From the IMG/VR virus record IMGVR_UViG_3300005613_000303, positions 1 through 29,890 of that record: a stretch of DNA of 29,890 nucleotides. The stretch is one strand, 5' to 3'. A program made the position numbers and the translations under genes. This DNA comes from a virus. Positions 1 to 29,890 of the stretch are shown in pieces (positions within the stretch are counted from its first letter, which is position 1; the number at the start of each line of letters is the position of its first letter). The notes beneath the pieces are model-generated. The model saw only the letters and a list, made by a program, of their open reading frames with translations, had not been told where the DNA came from and did not search any database.

Positions 1-707
1 GTAAACGCAAAATCAATAAATCCTTTTTCCAACTCAACAATTTCTCTCGCCATACTATATATGTGTAGTTTAAATGTATCGTTAACTTCGCTACTGTGTT
101 CTTCACACCATACCCTAAATAGTTTAGCATTTCCCTCAACGTGTAAAGACTCATCTTTTAAACTCCAATCATTTATTTGTGTCATTCCTAAATACTTACC
201 TAGTCTTTCAAAGTTCTTAAGCATAATAAAGCTACCGAATAATGAAATACCTTCTAGTAGTATTCCCTTAGCCAAAGACAAACCAAAGTTATCTTTAAAC
301 ACCTCATCTTGCATATAGGTATTCTTCTCAGCTGTTTCTTTGTGCCGTAAGAAGTCTGTGTAGTATGAGTCTGGAAACCCTAAGGTATCATTCAGGAGGT
401 TGTACCCTCTTTGATGCTCGAACTCTCTACACATAAAGCTTGTAAGCATACCTCTTACTTCATTGTTCTTGATGTAGTTAAGAAGAGGTAGGTACCCTTG
501 TGCTACATTCTTATCACTCTGTGTAAAGATTGAGAGAATATTCTTAATAAACTCTTTCTCTTCTGTAGGTGCTTTCTTATAGTCTTCTACATCTTTAGAG
601 AGGTCAGCCTCATCTGAAATCCAATGCATATTCTCACTCAACTGTCTGTAGTCCTCAGCCCAAGGGAATCTAAATTCCTTGTAGGCTATACTATACTCTG
701 TCAACAT
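1..707 (-). CDS. nrdB: Ribonucleotide reductase class Ia small subunit (3' end outside window)
   Basis: Makes and holds the diiron-tyrosyl radical that NrdA needs to reduce ribonucleotides. The reading frame opens at the ATG at 707, five bases after the nrdA stop, behind AAGGTT, and stays open to the left edge (235 codons seen). Expected ligands are visible: D65, E95, H98, E152, E186 and H189, with the radical tyrosine at Y102 (the E. coli D84/E115/H118/Y122/E204/E238/H241 pattern; the last two spacings match exactly). The E95-E152 distance is about 30 residues shorter than in E. coli, so the protein is compact. It forms one transcription unit with nrdA. The 3' end is not in the window. Confidence 0.93.
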   Translation of the reverse strand, partial: MLTEYSIAYKEFRFPWAEDYRQLSENMHWISDEADLSKDVEDYKKAPTEEKEFIKNILSIFTQSDKNVAQGYLPLLNYIKNNEVRGMLTSFMCREFEHQRGYNLLNDTLGFPDSYYTDFLRHKETAEKNTYMQDEVFKDNFGLSLAKGILLEGISLFGSFIMLKNFERLGKYLGMTQINDWSLKDESLHVEGNAKLFRVWCEEHSSEVNDTFKLHIYSMAREIVELEKGFIDFAF

Positions 708-711
708 CTTT

Positions 712-2454
712 TTAACCTTGGCAACTTATACATTCTGTTTCTCCTTGTACTCCATCTTTAAGAGCGTTACGTTCAATCTTAACGTTTACCTTCTCTACTT
801 TACCAGCACTCTCTGTACGTAAGTAGTATAGTCCTTTTAAAGGAACTCCCATACCGTACTCACTAAAGGCTCTTCTATGTACATCATTTACATAACCTCT
901 ATCAGCTCCTGTTTTAAAGAATACATTAACTGATTGTCCTTGACAGATATACTCCTGTCTAGCCCGAGCTTGTTCTACTACCCAACGCTGGTCCAATTCA
1001 AAAGAGGTTTTAAATACCTTCTTATCCTCTTCACTCATCCATTCTAAATGTTGTACGCTACCATCATGTTCCATAATAGATTGCCATACTTCATCTTCAG
1101 TAGTACCATAACTTTCTAAATCAATACAGAATAAGTATTCTTTTAAAGCTGGATTCTTAACTAGATAACTACCTACTCTCGTCTTATGTGTATAGCAGTT
1201 AGACGCCCTAGGTTCAATACTAGCAGAAACACCAAGAATAATACTACTGTTAGCATTAGGGGCAACAGCAAGAAGATGAGTATTACGTACACCATAACCA
1301 ATAGCATCCAATGCCTCACCCTTCTCTGTAGCAAGTCTCTTCGTAGCTTCAAGTGCTTTCTCCTTTATGTGTTTAAACATTCCTCTATTTACACTAATAG
1401 CTAGTGATGATTCAAACGGGATAGAGTTCCATTGTAAATAATCATGGAAGCCCATAGCTCCTAAACCTAAACTTCTTTCCATCTCAGCACTATACTTAGC
1501 TCTATGTAATTCATCTGGTGCATTGTCAATAAAGAATTGTAGTACGTTATCTAGCATCTCAATCAAATCACCTATAAAATATTCGTCTTCTTTCCATTCA
1601 TCATAAGTCTCTAAGTTAACAGAGGATAAACAACAGACACCACTTCTCTCTTCATCCGTTGGTAAGTGTATCTCATTACATAAGTTACTCCCATTTATCC
1701 TAAGCCCTTTTTCTTTTAAAGCTGGATGCATTTTATCATTAGCTTCATCTAAGTAATTAATATATGGTTCACCAGTTCTAAATCTAGTAGTTATAATCTC
1801 TTCCCATAGCTCTCGGGAATCTACAATCTCTGTGATATCTAAGGTGTGTGGGTCAACTAAACACCACTTCTCTCCATTGTCTACAGCTTTAATAAAATCA
1901 TCTGTAATGTTTACTCCATGGTGTAGGTTAAGGTTCTTTCTGTTGAGGTCTCCAGTAGGTGTTCTCATCTTAATAAACTCTAGAATCTCAGGGTGGTCAA
2001 TGTTTAAGTAAGCACCATAGCTTCCTCTTCTAGTCTTCCCTTGTCTGTACGCTATCATATCAGCATCTACTGTGTGAAGGAAACCATTCACTCCTGGTGT
2101 TACATCACTCATGCTTCTAACGTCTGACCAATGCCCTCCAATACCACCACCTTTAACAGATAACCATCTAATCTCGGTAGTGTGGTCACATAGTCCTTGT
2201 ATACTATCATCAACATAAGTAGTAAAACAACTTATAGGCATACCTTTAGGTTTCTCTCCTTCTAATATAGCATTACTTAGGATAGGAGAACTAAACATAA
2301 ACCATTGTTTTTTAATGTATTGGTAGATACGCTTAGAATGTTCTTTGTTACTACCAAAACAAGTACTTGCTCTAAGGAAAGCATCGTCAATAGATTCCCC
2401 CTCTCTACAATAATGTTTTTGTAGTAGCTCAGTTGCAAAATCTGTGAATGGCAT
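712..2454 (-). CDS. nrdA: Ribonucleotide reductase class Ia large subunit
   Basis: Reduces NDPs to dNDPs together with NrdB, feeding phage DNA synthesis. 580 aa. Catalytic motif N257-L-C259-N-E261 matches the E. coli N437/C439/E441 site; redox cysteines are C76 and C274 or C275; the radical-transfer pair is Y543-Y544; the C-terminal shuttle pair is C575/C578. The protein starts directly in the helical domain: the ~90-residue N-terminal ATP cone of E. coli NrdA is absent, so dATP overall-activity inhibition is probably lost, as in many phage enzymes. ATG preceded by AGGAG. It overlaps by one base the small exported protein gene upstream and is followed at once by nrdB. Confidence 0.95.
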   Translation of the reverse strand: MPFTDFATELLQKHYCREGESIDDAFLRASTCFGSNKEHSKRIYQYIKKQWFMFSSPILSNAILEGEKPKGMPISCFTTYVDDSIQGLCDHTTEIRWLSVKGGGIGGHWSDVRSMSDVTPGVNGFLHTVDADMIAYRQGKTRRGSYGAYLNIDHPEILEFIKMRTPTGDLNRKNLNLHHGVNITDDFIKAVDNGEKWCLVDPHTLDITEIVDSRELWEEIITTRFRTGEPYINYLDEANDKMHPALKEKGLRINGSNLCNEIHLPTDEERSGVCCLSSVNLETYDEWKEDEYFIGDLIEMLDNVLQFFIDNAPDELHRAKYSAEMERSLGLGAMGFHDYLQWNSIPFESSLAISVNRGMFKHIKEKALEATKRLATEKGEALDAIGYGVRNTHLLAVAPNANSSIILGVSASIEPRASNCYTHKTRVGSYLVKNPALKEYLFCIDLESYGTTEDEVWQSIMEHDGSVQHLEWMSEEDKKVFKTSFELDQRWVVEQARARQEYICQGQSVNVFFKTGADRGYVNDVHRRAFSEYGMGVPLKGLYYLRTESAGKVEKVNVKIERNALKDGVQGETECISCQG

Positions 2455-2681
2455 TAGAAACTCCTATACGAGGTAAGTGTACAAATCTCTTGTGTTACTG
2501 GTGTATGTGTAAGGATACATACTACCTTAAGAATTTTAACCTCTTTCTTTTCTACCTTACAACATTGTGTACAGGACTCATTGTTGTTATCCTTATGTAG
2601 GAAAGGTATATCACCATGTTCTACATTTGCTGATACAGTTATTGTAAGTGTAGCTACAATAGCTAATAGTTTTTTAATCAT
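2454..2681 (-). CDS. Small exported cysteine-rich protein, function unknown
   Basis: 75 aa. Residues 1-18 form a typical Sec signal peptide: MIKK, then a hydrophobic stretch, then a likely cleavage site after VSA. No lipobox is visible. The mature part is about 57 residues with a C-x-x-C-C cluster and two more cysteines, so it could form disulfides or bind metal in the periplasm. Start ATG sits behind GGAGGAAG inside the end of the DUF3310 gene, and its end overlaps the nrdA start. A periplasmic product inside a nucleotide-metabolism operon is unexpected. I do not recognise the family. Confidence 0.7.
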   Translation of the reverse strand: MIKKLLAIVATLTITVSANVEHGDIPFLHKDNNNESCTQCCKVEKKEVKILKVVCILTHTPVTQEICTLTSYRSF

Positions 2682-3027
2682 TTTCTTCCTCCTCTTTATT
2701 TTTAATTAGTATTTCTAAGTAGTGTTGTGCTTTTTTTAAATCTTCAATACCATTTTTGTTTTTGTACCTAGAAATATACTTTATAATATTTCCCTCTATG
2801 TAATCTATCTTATTCTTTGTGATGTAGTCTATAGGTTGTATTGCCATCTTGTAGTGGTCTCCTCCAACTTGCTTATCCTTTTGCTCGGTAGCTTCCTTAC
2901 CATACCTACCATAGTAATCGCCTGGCATACCACTATACTCTTGTTCAAATGTAGGCTTACTCCAACGGTTCTTCTCCCATTGTTTCATCTCTTCCTCTGC
3001 CTTTTTGTATGCTTCATGATATCCCAT
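2674..3027 (-). CDS. DUF3310 protein, related to T7 gp1.7 nucleotide kinase
   Basis: 117 aa. The C-terminal half (about residues 50-110) carries the DUF3310 signature: VGGDHYK, QPIDYI, then EGNIIKYISRYKNKNG and DLKKAQHYLE. In T7 this domain is in gp1.7, reported as a nucleotide kinase acting on dGMP and dTMP; assignment of that activity here is inference from the family. The N-terminal ~45 residues are charged and Trp/Tyr-rich without a recognised domain. Strong AAAGGAGGT ribosome site eight bases before the ATG. It lies between the MazG-like gene and the exported small protein, with nrdAB downstream, which fits dNTP supply. Confidence 0.8.
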   Translation of the reverse strand: MGYHEAYKKAEEEMKQWEKNRWSKPTFEQEYSGMPGDYYGRYGKEATEQKDKQVGGDHYKMAIQPIDYITKNKIDYIEGNIIKYISRYKNKNGIEDLKKAQHYLEILIKNKEEEEND

Positions 3028-3028
3028 A

Positions 3029-3331
3029 TTAAGCTACCTCCTTTACAAATACTCCATCACTTCTTAAGTATCCTTTCCTATCTTTAATCTCATTGTAAGC
3101 TTGGTTCACACAAGAATCAAACCATAAATCAGATACTAAAGCTAATCCTCTTAGTGTAACATACACATCACCAATAGCATCAGACAGTTCATCCTTATCA
3201 TTTATAGATAGGGCTGATATTACTTCAGTAGCTTCTTCAAGCATCTTAACTGCCTGACCTAAAGGTGTACCATACATAGGTATCTGTCTCTCTATAAACC
3301 ATTGGTCTATCTTTACATTTAGTTCATCCAT
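3029..3331 (-). CDS. MazG-like nucleotide pyrophosphohydrolase
   Basis: 100 aa. The all-alpha NTP-PPase metal motif is visible: E32-E33-x-x-E36, then E48-x-x-D51, followed by IGDVYVTL (D55). Single-domain MazG proteins of phages hydrolyse (d)NTPs or related nucleotides; a role in nucleotide recycling or in lowering ppGpp has been proposed for marine phages. The gene starts on an ATG that overlaps the stop codon of the upstream gene (TAATG) behind AAAGGAG, so it is probably translationally coupled. It sits in the nucleotide-metabolism block with DUF3310 and nrdAB. Confidence 0.8.
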   Translation of the reverse strand: MDELNVKIDQWFIERQIPMYGTPLGQAVKMLEEATEVISALSINDKDELSDAIGDVYVTLRGLALVSDLWFDSCVNQAYNEIKDRKGYLRSDGVFVKEVA

Positions 3332-4009: not shown

Positions 4010-5740
4010 TTAGTGGGTATCTGCCCAATTTATGCCTACTTTAGCTTCACCTTCAAGCTTACATCTCCATAATATCTTTTCTTCAACTATGCTGAAACAT
4101 TCAACAGCTATTCTTGAGGCAAAGTCTGCATCACATTCTCTTACTTCCATTTGTATCTCATCATGTATATTACCCACGAACTTATAGTCCAGGTTCTCTT
4201 CTTTTAATCTTCTGTCTAACTCTACTACATAGTACTTCATTATGTAAGCACCTGCTGATTGTAGTAGTACATTAAGAGCAGCGTGTGGGCTTCTTACAAA
4301 AAGTCGTCTGCCAGTGACTCCTCTGAGATACCCTCTTTTAGCAGCTGTTTGTACTCCTTCGACAAGTCTAGCAAGTCCATTTGTCTTCGCAAGAAATTGA
4401 CCTTTAAGTCTTTTACCTTCTGACGCCGTTCCATTGACGATTTCTCCAATCTTAGCATCTCCTGCTCCGTAAAGAAATCCATATATAAATGTTTTGGCAT
4501 TGTCTCTAGTTGGCAGTCCTGCTGCTTGTTGGTTAGCCGTGTGTATATCTTCTTCAATAAGTTTCTTACCATATGCACCTCCATCATATCGTGCTAAGTA
4601 GTGACTAAGTGTTCTAAGTTCTAGTCCACTAGCATCACATCCTACTAACCTATATCCTTTTGGTACAGTAAATAAACTACGAGCATTCTCACCTTGATAA
4701 GCACGTACACTAGGCACCTGTGCTAGGTTTGGGCTACTATGTGTAAATCTTCCAGTTACTGCACCAAGGATGTTAGCTCCTCCGTGTATTCTATTATCTT
4801 TTCCTACTTTTTTTAACCAAGCGTTATCACCTTCTGATAACTGCCCTAGTAACTTCTTAACCTCTTGGTAGTGTAGTAGAGGGGATGCCCAATCTTTATC
4901 TCTAAACATATCTTTAAGTGTTCTACTATCAGTCCTAGGTTTGCCTTTGTCTGTAAGTAGCCACTGTTGTTTACCATATAACTTCTCTACCCACCATACA
5001 ATATGGTTACCACTGCCTGGGTTGAAGTGAGTAAGCTCTATAGGTTGATTCTCCCCTACTGTGTACACATTAAGCCTCCTAAATGGATTCTTAGGTGTCC
5101 TTGTCTTTCCTTTAGGTAGAAATAAAGGTGTAAACACATTATGTAATGCATCAATAGCCTCTTCTAGCTCAGTCACAAGCTCTAGGTGTAATTCTCTTGC
5201 TTTTTGGAGGTCAAAGTACCAACCGTTTATGTGTTGTTGTGTTACTATCTTTTGTACGTTCTGTTCTAGCTCTAATGCTTCCTTTGGGAGCCAAGGTGTC
5301 TTTCTTTTTAAGTGTTGATATACTTTTACAGTTACTTCAACATCTCTTTTACAATAGACGTCCATTTCTTCTGAATATTTTGACCAATCACTATGAGTTC
5401 CCTTAGCATATCCTAATCTCTCCCCATAAGCATCTAAACTATGACCAAAACTAATATCTTTATCATAATATGCTAGTCTACCAAGTAATAGTGTATCTAC
5501 TACCTCTATATCCTCTCTAATCTTAGTTGTACCTAGTTTATTTAAGGCTGGTATATCGAACCCTATGATATTGTGCCCTACTATTGTAGTAGCTGTGTTG
5601 AGAGAATCAATTAATGTATTTACGTCTAAAAATTTTTCATATTTTTTCGATTCCATACAATAGGTGTACCCTACCCAAAACTTAGTACACTCAAGGAGTA
5701 GATTATCTGTTTCTATATCAAAGACTAAAGTCCTACTCAT
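4010..5740 (-). CDS. Family A DNA polymerase, T7 gp5-like
   Basis: 576 aa replicative polymerase with 3'-5' exonuclease. Exonuclease acids D8, E10, D62 and D133 (in YCKRD) are present. Polymerase motif A is D369-ASGLELR, motif B is R412-DNAKTFIYGFLYGAG (K416, Y420), motif C is H526-D527-E, and the chain ends in the terminal His typical of T7 gp5. T7 gp5 is 704 aa; the missing length is spread over the exonuclease region, the thioredoxin-binding insert in the thumb (shortened but with a basic PKGKTRTPKNPFRR stretch still there) and the segment between motifs B and C. ATG behind AAAGGAAC, overlapping the end of the endonuclease VII-like gene. Confidence 0.95.
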   Translation of the reverse strand: MSRTLVFDIETDNLLLECTKFWVGYTYCMESKKYEKFLDVNTLIDSLNTATTIVGHNIIGFDIPALNKLGTTKIREDIEVVDTLLLGRLAYYDKDISFGHSLDAYGERLGYAKGTHSDWSKYSEEMDVYCKRDVEVTVKVYQHLKRKTPWLPKEALELEQNVQKIVTQQHINGWYFDLQKARELHLELVTELEEAIDALHNVFTPLFLPKGKTRTPKNPFRRLNVYTVGENQPIELTHFNPGSGNHIVWWVEKLYGKQQWLLTDKGKPRTDSRTLKDMFRDKDWASPLLHYQEVKKLLGQLSEGDNAWLKKVGKDNRIHGGANILGAVTGRFTHSSPNLAQVPSVRAYQGENARSLFTVPKGYRLVGCDASGLELRTLSHYLARYDGGAYGKKLIEEDIHTANQQAAGLPTRDNAKTFIYGFLYGAGDAKIGEIVNGTASEGKRLKGQFLAKTNGLARLVEGVQTAAKRGYLRGVTGRRLFVRSPHAALNVLLQSAGAYIMKYYVVELDRRLKEENLDYKFVGNIHDEIQMEVRECDADFASRIAVECFSIVEEKILWRCKLEGEAKVGINWADTH

Positions 5741-6143
5741 TATGTTCCTTTAAATAAGCTATTGCCTTAGATAGGATTCGTATATCGTCCTTACAATTTC
5801 CTAGCATTAAGTTGCATTTACTACATAATACACCCCTAACTTTTCCAGTAGCATGACAATGGCCTATATGTGTATGGAAGTCTCTCAACTTTATCTGTTT
5901 ATTACAAATACCACAGGAATTCTTTTGTAATGTATATAGTTCTAGTACATCTTCTGGTGTAGTTCCATATAGTCTCTTTATATCTGATGCATACTTCATT
6001 TCTTTTTTATCTGGATTACTGTAATGTATTTGCCTTGCAATCTTAGTACATGCTCTACATTGTGCCTTAACTCCTTTACCATCTCCTCTGTTATAAAAAT
6101 CAGAAGTCTGTTTCATCTCCAAACACTTTGTGCATTTCTTCAT
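5733..6143 (-). CDS. Endonuclease VII-like (T4 gp49 family) protein
   Basis: 136 aa. N-terminal zinc ribbon C4/C7/C29/C32; C-terminal endonuclease VII motif with C77/C80, HCH at 95-97, GKVRG, and C107-x-x-C110-N. Family members cut Holliday junctions and branched DNA before packaging, and related HNH-type proteins also act as homing nucleases. Odd point: where the family normally has Asp in (V/I)DHCH there is Gly94 (codon GGC; Asp would be GAC), a one-base difference at a metal-binding catalytic position. The gene starts inside the primase-helicase end behind GAGGAG and overlaps the polymerase start, so it is fully embedded in the replication operon. Confidence 0.8.
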   Translation of the reverse strand: MKKCTKCLEMKQTSDFYNRGDGKGVKAQCRACTKIARQIHYSNPDKKEMKYASDIKRLYGTTPEDVLELYTLQKNSCGICNKQIKLRDFHTHIGHCHATGKVRGVLCSKCNLMLGNCKDDIRILSKAIAYLKEHNE

Positions 6144-9036: not shown

Positions 9037-9061
9037 TCTCCTTTCTTCTATAATGTCAATG

Positions 9062-9093
9062 TGGTACATTTCCTTAAGTTTACTTTAAGGTTT
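9062..9093. repeat. 31-bp repeat downstream of RNA polymerase (copy 1)
   Basis: About 31 bases that recur at 11778-11808 with only a TTT/AAA difference in the middle. Shared parts on the plus strand are TGGTACATTTCCTTAAG and ACTTTAAGGTT. It can fold (CCTTAA/TTAAGG stem). It lies in the short gap between the RNA polymerase stop and the next gene. It could be a promoter, an RNA-processing hairpin of the T7 RNase III type, or a terminator. Confidence 0.7.
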
Positions 9094-11724: not shown

Positions 11725-11785
11725 TTAATATTATATACTTAGGGTATCTTTCCCTTGTTCTTCATATATTGTAAACTTGGTACAT
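11725..11785 (-). repeat. Long imperfect repeat, copy near RNA polymerase
   Basis: Matches 17461-17536. Both contain, on the plus strand, TTAATATTATATACT, a variable piece ending in CTTG, TTCTTCAT and GTAAACTTGG(T/A)ACAT; the other copy is longer by about 15 bases of pyrimidine tract. One copy precedes RNA polymerase, the other follows TerL. Confidence 0.65.
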
Positions 11786-11808
11786 TTCCTTAAGAAAACT
11801 TTAAGGTT
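11778..11808. repeat. 31-bp repeat upstream of RNA polymerase (copy 2)
   Basis: Second copy of the element at 9062-9093, 28 of about 31 positions the same. It begins at the stop codon of the 11807-12019 gene, so it occupies the upstream intergenic region of RNA polymerase. Read on the minus strand it shows CTTAAAG and CTTAAGG spaced by 11 bases, like the early-gene promoter elements. Confidence 0.7.
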
Positions 11809-12158: not shown

Positions 12159-12500
12159 TTATTTCTTATCCTTTACAAATTCTTGGAATAGGTACGTATG
12201 CTCATCTGGTAGCACATCATACATAGCTCTTGCTAAATCCTGTATCTCCCATAAGGCACTCTTGTCTGTCCTAAGGGATAGGAAGTTCTGAAGACTTCTA
12301 GCATTGATAGTCATTACCAGGGATGTCTTGTATGCTTCGGGAATATTAGGCTTTACTTTATCATTGCTAACACCAACAACTACTTGCTGTCTTAGCATCT
12401 CTAATTGACCTATAGTCACATCATCAATGACTGGGTTTCCAGTTAAGTGAATATATTTACCTGCTCTTTCTCTTTGTTCTTCAGTTATTCTAATCTGCAT
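12159..12500 (-). CDS. thyX: ThyX C-terminal half (split flavin-dependent thymidylate synthase)
   Basis: 113 aa with its own start and AAAGGA site, located inside the last codons of the HNH gene. The sequence is the C-terminal part of ThyX: PEAYKTSL, then N66-ARSLQNFL-x-L-R77 (the conserved dUMP/FAD pocket block) and the closing helix with LPDEHTYLF. From memory it reads much like the end of Helicobacter ThyX. It lacks the RHR motif, which is on the other half at 13084-13428. Together the halves cover a normal-length ThyX (about 220 aa). I infer that the two chains assemble; inactivation is the alternative. Confidence 0.85.
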   Translation of the reverse strand: MQIRITEEQRERAGKYIHLTGNPVIDDVTIGQLEMLRQQVVVGVSNDKVKPNIPEAYKTSLVMTINARSLQNFLSLRTDKSALWEIQDLARAMYDVLPDEHTYLFQEFVKDKK

Positions 12501-13041
12501 AATTTCCTTTCTTATTTTTTATCCAACTTACTGTAGACGGAGATATGTTATATTTAAGTGATATTTCTTTTCCAGTCATTGTTTTACAATCTTCTCTTAT
12601 AAGAACTACCTGCTCAACAGATACTTTTTGATTAGATTTACCCATAGACTTCGCTTGTATTTTTGCACTCTTTCTGTGTTTGTCGGTTACCTTCCATAAT
12701 CCATTATCTACTGCGTGCTTTTGATTTTCACTTCTAGTACACCACTCTAAGTTAGTTGCTACATTATTTGTTTTATCGCCATCAATATGATTTACTACTG
12801 CTTCTTTAAAATATCCTGAAACAAAATGCTCTGCTACTAATCTATGGACACTTACTGTTTTGTATTTTCCGTCAATATATAGGTTTTGAACCTCATAACC
12901 TGCTGAAGTTATTGCTCCTTCAGTTTTAACAAATTCTTCACTATATTGGTTTTTTGTTTTTCTAGCTTTGCTTTTAATTCTACCTATATTAGATATTTGG
13001 TAATTAATTTCAAAGCCTATAATGTCTTTCCATACTTCCAT
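12490..13041 (-). CDS. NUMOD4-HNH homing endonuclease inserted in thyX
   Basis: 183 aa. Residues 1-55 are a NUMOD4 module (EVWKDIIGFEINYQISNIGRIKS). Residues 62-115 are an HNH_3 nuclease core: VHRLVAEHF, NHIDGDKTNN, NLEW, ENQKHA. Residues 143-178 look like a helix-turn-helix DNA-binding end (GKEISLKYNISPSTVSWI). Such proteins cut a specific target so that their own gene is copied into it. It lies exactly between the two thyX halves, 42 bases after the first and overlapping the second by 11, so it is the element that split the gene. ATG behind AAAGGA. Confidence 0.92.
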   Translation of the reverse strand: MEVWKDIIGFEINYQISNIGRIKSKARKTKNQYSEEFVKTEGAITSAGYEVQNLYIDGKYKTVSVHRLVAEHFVSGYFKEAVVNHIDGDKTNNVATNLEWCTRSENQKHAVDNGLWKVTDKHRKSAKIQAKSMGKSNQKVSVEQVVLIREDCKTMTGKEISLKYNISPSTVSWIKNKKGNYAD

Positions 13042-13083
13042 GCTAATCCTTTATTATTTGATATGTAGTATTATACCATAGGT

Positions 13084-13428
13084 TTATTTAAAAGTACAAA
13101 AAGATTTCTCGTCTTTTATTTCTTTAATAGTGTATCTGCTGGACTTTACTGACATAGATGCCATTCTATGTCTAGCTAACTCTTGTAAAACATATCTAGG
13201 TACTCCGTCTATATCAAATGTATACACCAGGTGTTCTAAGGTGGACTTATGCTTGTTCTTGTTACCTACTCTGTCTATTAGTTCTTTATCTTTTTCTCCA
13301 CATACATATATAATCTCTGTGCTATAATCATCCTGATATGTATCACTCTTATCCTCACTTGCCCAACACTTCCTAATAGCCTTAGAAGCAACCCATAAGG
13401 GCGTGTTATGTAATAGGTTTATAATCAT
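13084..13428 (-). CDS. thyX: ThyX N-terminal half (split flavin-dependent thymidylate synthase)
   Basis: 114 aa. Makes dTMP from dUMP with FAD and methylene-tetrahydrofolate when joined with the C-terminal half. The ThyX signature RHRxxSxxxxSxR is intact at residues 86-98 (RHRMASMSVKSSR), and the upstream helix with HKSTLEH is present. The frame runs about 12 more family-like residues (IKEIKDEKSF), then ends in CTFK-stop, where an uninterrupted ThyX would continue with the sequence now found at 12500. ATG behind AAAGGAG. Upstream lie a Fur-type palindrome (13496-13510) and a GGCGA/TCGCC hairpin (13454-13466). Confidence 0.9.
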   Translation of the reverse strand: MIINLLHNTPLWVASKAIRKCWASEDKSDTYQDDYSTEIIYVCGEKDKELIDRVGNKNKHKSTLEHLVYTFDIDGVPRYVLQELARHRMASMSVKSSRYTIKEIKDEKSFCTFK

Positions 13429-15433: not shown

Positions 15434-15455
15434 TTCATACCCCTTTATTTAATTT

Positions 15456-15496
15456 ATATTATATTGTACCTAATGCTACCTTAAAAGTAGCTTAAG
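15456..15496 (-). promoter_or_regulatory. Early promoter element (copy 1)
   Basis: Minus strand: two TTAAG(C/G)TA boxes 11 bases apart (15488-15495 and 15477-15484), then 17 bases between TTTTAA (15481-15486) and TATAAT (15458-15463). The same layout is at copies 2 and 3. Likely read by host RNA polymerase. Confidence 0.6.
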
Positions 15497-15783: not shown

Positions 15784-15813
15784 GTTATACCCCCCCCTTT
15801 ATTTATTTTATAT

Positions 15814-15853
15814 ATTATATTGTAACCTACAATAGCTTAAAATAAGCTTAAAT
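15814..15853 (-). promoter_or_regulatory. Early promoter element (copy 2)
   Basis: TTTTAA at 15837-15842, exactly 17 bases, then TATAAT at 15814-15819 on the minus strand, with phased TTAAGC boxes upstream. Serves the 94-aa gene. Confidence 0.6.
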
Positions 15854-16521: not shown

Positions 16522-16545
16522 GTTGTTATCCTTTATTTATTTTAT

Positions 16546-16585
16546 ACTATATTGTATCTAGCCTAAGCTTAAAAGTAGCTTAAGC
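16546..16585 (-). promoter_or_regulatory. Early promoter element (copy 3)
   Basis: TTTTAA at 16569-16574, 17 bases, TATAGT at 16546-16551 on the minus strand, with TTAAGCTA boxes 11 bases apart. Upstream of the GP88-like gene, overlapping the end of the 82-aa gene. Confidence 0.6.
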
Positions 16586-17145: not shown

Positions 17146-17235
17146 ATAAGATTTATTCTTTAAGCTATCTCAAAGGGGTGCCTATGGGGGGTCTGTGCTA
17201 AGCTCAAGCAAAAGAGAGACACCTCAGATATTTTT

Positions 17236-17322
17236 AGTATTTTTGGGGATACTAAGTAAGTGTGTATGTGTAGGTATTTTAGTATTTTTGGGGATACTAA
17301 GTAAGTGTGTATGTGTAGGTAT
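17236..17322. repeat. 45-bp tandem direct repeat, two copies
   Basis: Copy 1 is 17236-17280; copy 2 begins at 17281 and is identical through 17322. Unit begins AGTATTTTTGGGGATACT and contains GTAAGTGTGTATGTGTAGG. A third, degenerate GTAAGTGTATAGTGTA follows at about 17361. Similar short repeat arrays flank the terminal repeat of T7. Confidence 0.85.
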
Positions 17323-28228: not shown

Positions 28229-28540
28229 TTAGCCCTCCAAACCTCTAATTAAAGCCCTAGCTTCTGCTCTTGCTTCAAGAACACCATCTGTATTGCCATC
28301 ATAATCAGGTAATACTTTGTAGTCTGTGTCTTGTAGGTATTGCTTAGCTTCTGCTATTTTTTTATCTTCAACAATCTTTGCTTCTCTTGCATCTTTAATA
28401 GAAGCACATTCCGTAAGTGTTTTACTGTCAACAATCTCATTAGTATCAAGATACACATAATCCGTGTCTATCATAACTACTGTTTTACCTGTTACCTCTG
28501 ATATAATATCTACCATTGGTATTTCAATTTTATCTTCCAT
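28229..28540 (-). CDS. Possible tail-fibre assembly or tail accessory protein
   Basis: 103 aa from ATG at 28540, picked because GGAGGTAGAATA precedes it and its ATG overlaps the stop of the GIY-YIG gene. The C-terminal part (YLQDTDYKVLPDY, then VLEARAEARALI) resembles the end of fibre-assembly chaperones, which also end in an R-x-x-AR-x-x-I helix. It is two genes downstream of the fibre, interrupted by the homing endonuclease, which supports a fibre-linked role. Weak call. Confidence 0.5.
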   Translation of the reverse strand: MEDKIEIPMVDIISEVTGKTVVMIDTDYVYLDTNEIVDSKTLTECASIKDAREAKIVEDKKIAEAKQYLQDTDYKVLPDYDGNTDGVLEARAEARALIRGLEG

Positions 28541-29181
28541 TATTCTACCTCCATTAAATGTGAACAAGCAACTTCGTGTGAACTATCCACATATTGCCCC
28601 CAGTTATCTATATTTATTATTACTTTAGAGTCTGACTTAGATTGCGTATTATAAATAGGTGAATGTTTTTCGATTAAATACACCTCCAAAATATTTATAG
28701 TAGAATTGTTTTGTATCAAGTGCACATTAACAGTATCAAATATTATATTTGCATTATTATAATGAGAATATAGCCTATGGGATACTGAGCTGTTTGATTT
28801 ACCTATATACACAATAGTATCTTTATTAGAGAGTATATATATACCAGAATACCCCCTAAACTCAGTAAAAAGTGTATTTGGCTCTAATACTTCCATATTA
28901 CTAAACAGTTCTTCTGTAAATCCGTTTCTATCTGCAAATCTATATGCAGACCTTTCTGCTAGTATAAAATCTGTTTTTGAATTGTATTTTTTAGCTATAT
29001 CTAAAACGCTTTCTTTTGTAAACCTATTGTGCTTATACACCATATGTTTACATATCACATCTAAGATTCCACGCTTTCTTGAAATTTCGTAAGCACTCTT
29101 GTTAAAAGTAGTAAACTCACCTCTGCTACGGTACTTTAAAGCTTCTTCTCTTAACATACTATCAGTCCAAATATTACTCAT
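28540..29181 (-). CDS. GIY-YIG homing endonuclease
   Basis: 213 aa. Two copies of a DNA-binding repeat at 10-47 and 58-96 (each with A-x-K-Y, then F, then SAY, then a G and a final M), followed by a GIY-YIG nuclease: GIY at 113-115, YIG at 125-127, R136, H140, E166, N178. Mobile gene, inserted directly at the 3' end of the fibre gene: its ATGAG start overlaps the fibre stop by eight bases. It sits beside the GC-rich variable tip of the fibre, so it may cut an allele lacking the insertion. Confidence 0.88.
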   Translation of the reverse strand: MSNIWTDSMLREEALKYRSRGEFTTFNKSAYEISRKRGILDVICKHMVYKHNRFTKESVLDIAKKYNSKTDFILAERSAYRFADRNGFTEELFSNMEVLEPNTLFTEFRGYSGIYILSNKDTIVYIGKSNSSVSHRLYSHYNNANIIFDTVNVHLIQNNSTINILEVYLIEKHSPIYNTQSKSDSKVIINIDNWGQYVDSSHEVACSHLMEVE

Positions 29182-29890
29182 TTCCTATACCTTCGCAACA
29201 AAAGCGACAACCAATCGCCCAAGCCGAAAGCCAAACATAATAGTACCAAAGCGAACAACGAGAACCCGCATGCACGCCATTGCCACGATCGCCACCCAAT
29301 ATCACTGCTGTGATGTGGTTATTGTGGAGTGCATAAATATCCCCACGGCTATCAGTTAGTCCTGTCCTCCATGCCCAACTAGTTGACCCTTCATCACGGT
29401 TACCTGCAACATCTGCACCCCAAACATACTCAACTCCAGTAGCTTGCTCAATACCAAACTTAGAAGTAAGATTGGAATAATGTTCTACTCTTCCAGCTAC
29501 TGATTCGTATCCATCATTACTGGAAGATTTACCTTCATTAACTCCATAAGCTATTGTAATAAATTCTTCATAAGGTATTAGTGTTTTTCCGTGAGATTTT
29601 CCAACTTCACAAGCTTGAAACCAAGTAAATTTACCATAATTAGTAGAACCATTCCCACCAAACTCTAAAGGTATTTTTGGAATTGCTCTACCATATGATG
29701 TTGCTCCTGCTGCAATAGTAGCCCCTGCTTTAGAAGTACCGTTTGTAATATGCTCACTATTTAATAAATATATATCGTACCATCTACCCAATATATGAAC
29801 CATACCTTCAGGTTCACAAGTAGGTCTAAACCAATTTGTCCAAATTGAATATTTATTTATTCCTGCAATAGCAGTCATATCAGCAGAAGT
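29174..29890 (-). CDS. Tail fibre C-terminal part with C-type-lectin/Mtd-like tip (5' end outside window)
   Basis: At least 238 codons; the frame stays open to the right edge and the first ATG (29878) has no ribosome site, so the gene starts outside. The end resembles the C-type lectin fold of DGR target proteins such as Bordetella phage Mtd: a GKTLIPYEEFITIAYGV block, then VWG, then (counting from ATG 29878) residues 195-234 with ILGGDRGNGVHAGSRC, LWY, and IGCRFCC, in line with Mtd's GG..., GSR..LWY and GARGVC. The coding strand of this tip is about 53% GC with only 10 A in 106 bases, unlike the rest of the gene. Would bind the host receptor. Confidence 0.8.
   Translation of the reverse strand, partial: TSADMTAIAGINKYSIWTNWFRPTCEPEGMVHILGRWYDIYLLNSEHITNGTSKAGATIAAGATSYGRAIPKIPLEFGGNGSTNYGKFTWFQACEVGKSHGKTLIPYEEFITIAYGVNEGKSSSNDGYESVAGRVEHYSNLTSKFGIEQATGVEYVWGADVAGNRDEGSTSWAWRTGLTDSRGDIYALHNNHITAVILGGDRGNGVHAGSRCSLWYYYVWLSAWAIGCRFCCEGIGNE
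29191..29296 (-). other. Candidate DGR variable region
   Basis: Last 106 bases of the lectin tip: 10 A, 40 T and 56 G+C on the coding strand. Adenine loss is what repeated adenine-specific mutagenic homing would leave. A 4-bp TCGC/GCGA hairpin (29193-29207) lies at its 3' end. No template repeat or reverse transcriptase is in the window. Confidence 0.6.

Follow-up and report, generated by a model that had tools for sequence, protein, structure and literature searches.

An adenine-depleted Mtd-family tail-fibre tip beside a putative homing endonuclease gene in the slot of a DGR cassette

The diversity-generating retroelement (DGR) of the Bordetella phage BPP-1, comprising mtd-VR1, bbp7/avd, the template repeat (TR) and brt, is the closest described system, and efficient retrohoming in BPP-1 requires a hairpin within 24 bp after the variable region (VR) (PMC3240598). 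In the present study, we analyzed IMGVR_UViG_3300005613_000303, a linear, metagenomic virus record of IMG/VR with 29,890 bases, the whole of which is called the window here. The window shares with BPP-1 the Mtd fold, the C-terminal VR and the variable codons, and the gene order of BPP-1 is identical in relatives of the window. The window itself differs from BPP-1 in that avd, TR, the reverse transcriptase (RT) gene, the VR-side flank and the hairpin are absent and a GIY-YIG gene lies in their place, and in that its backbone carries a T7-type RNA polymerase and terminase. The features are listed in Table 1; related loci are designated by L numbers and related genomes by G numbers.

Table 1. Positions of the features of the window
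Feature	Position	Strand	Basis or remark
Mtd-family tail-fibre/receptor-binding protein, C-terminal part	29174..29890	-	PHROG 11262, PDB Mtd, AlphaFold2 and Foldseek
VR, orphaned, adenine-depleted	29194..29303	-	Alignment to 11 TRs of relatives; BPP-1 variable codons
Region 3' of the VR	29120..29193	-	VR-side flank ACCACYTG... of DGR-bearing relatives and GRNA-tetraloop hairpin both absent
GIY-YIG endonuclease gene, putative free-standing homing endonuclease	28540..29181	-	Pfam, UvrC-type matches, L006 homologue, motif residues
Small conserved gene ('PLVDIL...'), slot boundary	28229..28567	-	Directly after RT in relatives
Split thyX	12159..13428	-	
N-terminal Thy1 half	13084..13428	-	
C-terminal half of thyX	12159..12500	-	
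NUMOD4/HNH_3 endonuclease gene	12490..13041		Between the two thyX halves
Recombination endonuclease VII-type gene	5733..6143	-	PF02945, 5e-22
45-nt unit, exact tandem duplication	17232..17321		Non-coding
55-nt intergenic repeat, three copies	15442..15496, 15798..15852, 16530..16584		
44-nt repeat, two copies	9049..9092, 11765..11808		Flanking the RNA polymerase gene

The phage backbone and the Mtd-type tip

Profile searches of the window yielded matches to PF00940 (2.7e-76), PF00476 (5.6e-43) and PF22530 (2.3e-31). With a single-subunit RNA polymerase, PolA (family A DNA polymerase) and a T7-type terminase, the window represents a T7-like podovirus (Autographiviridae-type). The nearest phage by terminase was G016, a syntenic, T7-like phage of 42.3 kb whose terminase was 84% identical; compared with G016, the window is a fragment from which about 10 kb of structural genes are missing. 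Neither mtd nor RT was found in the near-complete G016. Neither a T7-type polymerase nor a window-type terminase was found in the DGR-bearing relatives tested, which suggested that the mtd module probably came into the T7-like lineage from another phage type. Several further features of the backbone were observed. The thyX gene of the window is split around an endonuclease gene, with no Rfam intron match at the split, and the relative G015 carries a single intact Thy1 ORF. The endonuclease VII-type gene lies between a primase/helicase-like ORF and polA, and different relatives are present in L006 and G015. The 55-nt and 44-nt intergenic repeats are possible phage promoters or terminators.

The tail-fibre ORF, which runs past the contig edge at its 5' end, matched PHROG 11262 ('tail protein') with E=1.3e-58, BPP-1 mtd in tblastn with 36% identity over 95% (E=5e-28) and Mtd in the PDB (1yu4) with E=5.6e-44. 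An AlphaFold2 model was built from 44 homologues and reached a pLDDT of 73 and a pTM of 0.75. The top five Foldseek matches of this model were all Mtd variants (Mtd 1yu4, E=3.1e-19, TMq 0.77), which supported a C-type lectin fold. These results demonstrated that the gene is an Mtd homologue, and its tip presumably binds a host receptor. An earlier note on this DNA, made from the letters alone, had pointed to a parallel between the protein pattern of the tip and the end of Mtd and had proposed a fold check for a C-type lectin. The motif is as described there, the parallel reflects true homology, and the model agrees with the Mtd fold.

On the reverse strand, positions 29191-29296 contained 10 A, 40 T, 38 G and 18 C (52.8% GC), compared with 190 A, 175 T, 135 G and 82 C in the 582 nt that precede this stretch in the gene. 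At most 10 A per 106 nt were found at only 12 overlapping positions of the minus strand, all at this site. The composition reported in the earlier note (10 A and 40 T in 106 coding bases, 53% GC) and its contrast with the upstream part were thus reproduced. The site was also correct; its extent needed a small revision, as alignment with the relatives' TRs gives a slightly longer VR (approximate bounds in Table 1).

Relatives of the tail-fibre protein with 45-73% identity were found in IMG/VR and in Campylobacterota MAGs (Sulfurimonas, Arcobacteraceae and Sulfurospirillum), and those with an intact DGR (mtd-VR, avd, TR and RT) showed 57-73% identity. In each of 11 relatives, mismatches between VR and TR numbered 7-12 at TR adenines and 0-1 at all remaining positions, which is the DGR signature. 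We then used the consensus of these 11 TRs as the reference for the window, with non-adenine sites restricted to the conserved ones. The window VR departs from this reference at 12 of the 20 adenine sites, compared with 6 of the 60 conserved sites occupied by other bases (Fisher p=1.9e-5), so that its divergence is adenine-specific with respect to the TRs of relatives. The variable codons of the window were co-linear with codons 344, 346, 347, 350, 357, 359, 360, 364, 366, 368 and 369 of BPP-1 Mtd, where the window carries D, G, N, H, L, Y, Y, L, A, A and I, respectively. A scan of IMG/VR with the VR framework pattern found no other allele. Collectively, the Mtd homology, the adenine-specific divergence and the shared variable codons strongly supported a history of DGR diversification for the tip, and the suggestion of the earlier note that the phage had inherited a diversified tip was borne out by the same evidence.

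The cassette slot and the DGR machinery

Where the slot was complete and identity reached 54% or more, mtd was in most loci followed by avd, TR, RT and then a small conserved gene; in these loci of relatives, avd matched bAvd (PF22296) and NF033474, and RT matched PF00078. In the window and in L006, a 102 kb record with no RT, the order was instead mtd, GIY-YIG and the small gene. The GIY-YIG gene of the window encodes 213 aa, and its start lies over the mtd stop, so that it overlaps the last 8 nt of mtd. The protein matched Pfam GIY-YIG with E=4.5e-4, just below the curated cut-off, and UvrC-type GIY-YIG proteins with values down to 7e-6. A gene encoding a 57% identical protein was observed at the same place in L006, and the GIY, YIG, R, E and N residues of the catalytic motif were kept in both proteins. 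The kept motif suggested that the gene is probably a free-standing homing endonuclease, which may be active and mobile. Searches of IMG/VR for other relatives of the internal virion protein, or of the GIY-YIG protein alone, yielded nothing new.

No RVT_1 match was obtained in the 29.9 kb contig, which is a fragment. There was also no TR-like near-repeat in the window, where the 106-nt stretch, placed whole at any other site, had at best 23 non-adenine mismatches, and locus-specific HMMs detected neither avd, which is present in most relatives, nor RT. In DGR-bearing relatives, the sequence ACCACYTG... lies directly 3' of the VR and is followed by a hairpin with a GRNA-type tetraloop, which was observed in nearly all DGR-bearing loci. 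Standard DNA folding did not show this hairpin, and we therefore adopted a purpose-written rule that allows G.A pairs and a GRNA-type loop and that 6% of random 110-nt segments pass. By this rule, the hairpin was not found 3' of the VR in the window or L006, and neither was the VR-side flank; the window thus has no IMH and hairpin after its VR. The missing hairpin argues against the action of a DGR in trans. The earlier note had also considered a DGR as the means by which this phage varies its receptor binding, and had proposed a search for an adenine-specific near-repeat of about 100 bases and a DGR reverse transcriptase. Neither was found within the 29.9 kb contig, and with the slot held by the GIY-YIG gene and the hairpin missing, an active DGR in the window is not supported.

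Loss of the DGR among relatives and rival explanations

The slot was occupied in several different ways among the relatives. L011 carried an HNH_3 gene in the slot after mtd, L007 had a deletion through TR/RT, L132 was without avd and TR, and the slot was empty in L012, L138 and L176. In a tree of the Mtd body, made without the VR, L006 paired with the DGR-bearing L005, L002 fell among L001 and L003, L138 with L126, and L007 with L009. RT-less loci thus stand beside DGR-bearing loci several times in this tree, which indicated that DGR loss is recurrent. L006 proved to be a mosaic, L005-like in the middle and L003-like in the VR. An origin of the window and L006 arrangements by VR-TR recombination, which a TR-like Glu codon after the VR might suggest, was not adopted, as the flank similarity was marginal in the window (shuffle 0.03) and absent in L006 (0.53).

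Other states of the DGR were observed in individual relatives. Two MAG loci carry decaying DGRs, with a frameshifted RT in L174 and an in-frame avd-RT deletion fusion in L177. In L011, positions 322-3080 hold a different fibre-like gene with an RT directly after it. This pair lies one gene upstream of the mtd with the HNH gene and is possibly a second DGR. The upstream RT was rejected as the partner of the L011 mtd, since its neighbour is another fibre gene and the search for a TR of that mtd found none. Second, remote mtd genes are present in contigs with an mtd-linked DGR (L005, 5493-6059; L014, 10001-10585; L155, 5001-5609), and those of L005, L014/L151 and L155 lie several kb from the RT. 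The remote genes of L005 and L014 indicated that trans targets exist in this family. The remote copies in L151 (the L014 contig), L155 and L178 have kept the post-VR hairpin or a similar motif, as is expected of trans targets.

With the retroelement genes and the landing signal missing and an endonuclease gene in their usual place, the tip is most likely an inherited, frozen variant made by a DGR, whose cassette was displaced by a homing endonuclease or was lost before an endonuclease occupied the slot. In this reading, a BPP-1-like DGR once diversified the C-terminal lectin face of the Mtd-type receptor-binding tip, with TR-templated cDNA carrying adenine errors replacing the VR. The lineage of the window phage has since lost its cassette, with IMH flank, hairpin, avd, TR and RT, and carries the GIY-YIG homing-type gene in the interval from mtd to the small gene. 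Such a tip would now change through ordinary mutation and through recombination with other mtd alleles. The adenine-poor composition might instead reflect an ordinary compositional or structural constraint of the lectin tip with no DGR history, as a Trp/Gly/Cys-rich tip itself favours T and G. However, the changed sites coincide with adenines in the TRs of close relatives and with the codons that vary in BPP-1, which makes this explanation highly improbable. Alternatively, the VR could be the trans target of an active DGR encoded in the roughly 10 kb of phage sequence missing from the contig or in a prophage of the host. The remote mtd genes with intact hairpins in related contigs, the fully diversified appearance of the window VR residues and the fragmentary contig are consistent with such action, but the VR-side flank and the hairpin needed for efficient retrohoming in BPP-1 are absent from the window and present at the remote targets, the 6 changed non-adenine sites indicate drift, and G016 has no RT. 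We consider trans action distinctly unlikely and infer that no DGR acts in trans on the window VR.

How the cassette of the frozen tip disappeared is a separate matter. The GIY-YIG endonuclease (an HNH enzyme in L002 and L011) might have cut a DGR-bearing allele near the end of VR/TR, and repair from an endonuclease-bearing phage might have replaced the whole cassette; this is a mechanistic extension of the frozen-tip explanation and not an alternative to it. Endonuclease genes were present in 4 of the 8 RT-less slots of the clade and in none of the 15 RT-bearing slots (Fisher p of about 0.008, uncorrected for relatedness). In L002, a truncated avd (PF22296 positions 1-68) is in frame with an HNH_3 domain, in L006 the homology to its DGR-bearing sister L005 stops at the VR end and resumes in the small gene, and the HNH gene in thyX is a further insertion in the window phage. 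Against this, L007, L012, L138 and L176 show deletion without an endonuclease, the cleavage site is putative, the identity between the window and L006 is not raised next to the junction and so gives no signal of co-conversion, and phage intergenic gaps often gain endonucleases anyway. Displacement is therefore a tentative possibility, and that the endonuclease caused the DGR loss is unproven. The broader proposal is one of repeated invasion: homing endonucleases would enter the DGR cassettes beside mtd genes, take their place and convert a self-mutating tip into a fixed allele spread between phages by homing and recombination. It appears rather unlikely at present; if it were true, two kinds of selfish or helper element would compete for one slot.

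Comparison with known systems

Intact, decaying, empty and endonuclease-occupied states all occur in one gene neighbourhood, which links a well-studied tropism-switching system to its loss. Such a range of states makes it possible to study under what conditions targeted hypermutation is retained or abandoned by phages, and whether its loss is driven by mobile endonucleases. The findings also call for caution, as an adenine-poor, Mtd-like tip alone is no proof of an active DGR. In the literature searched, which was not exhaustive, we found no report of a homing endonuclease replacing a DGR or lying in the cassette slot.

An orphan Mtd is not new: Marinomonas P12026 and Synechococcus S-CBS1 and S-CBS3 also have an Mtd gene and no RVT_1 match in the whole record. 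Unlike the window, they have no endonuclease gene in the slot adjacent to mtd, P12026 keeps an avd-like remnant, and S-CBS1 and S-CBS3 keep an inverted repeat. The engineered T7::BPP-1 chimaera (LR745707/LR745708) is likewise a T7-like phage with an Mtd tip, but according to its record note it is a laboratory fusion, whereas the window comes from a metagenomic record. Free-standing phage homing endonucleases of the GIY-YIG and HNH types resemble the window gene in their motif residues and in insertion between conserved genes, and the HNH gene with NUMOD4 in thyX resembles them as well. The GIY-YIG gene differs from these in that its homing is putative, based on slot comparison, and in its location, which is otherwise the place of a retroelement cassette.
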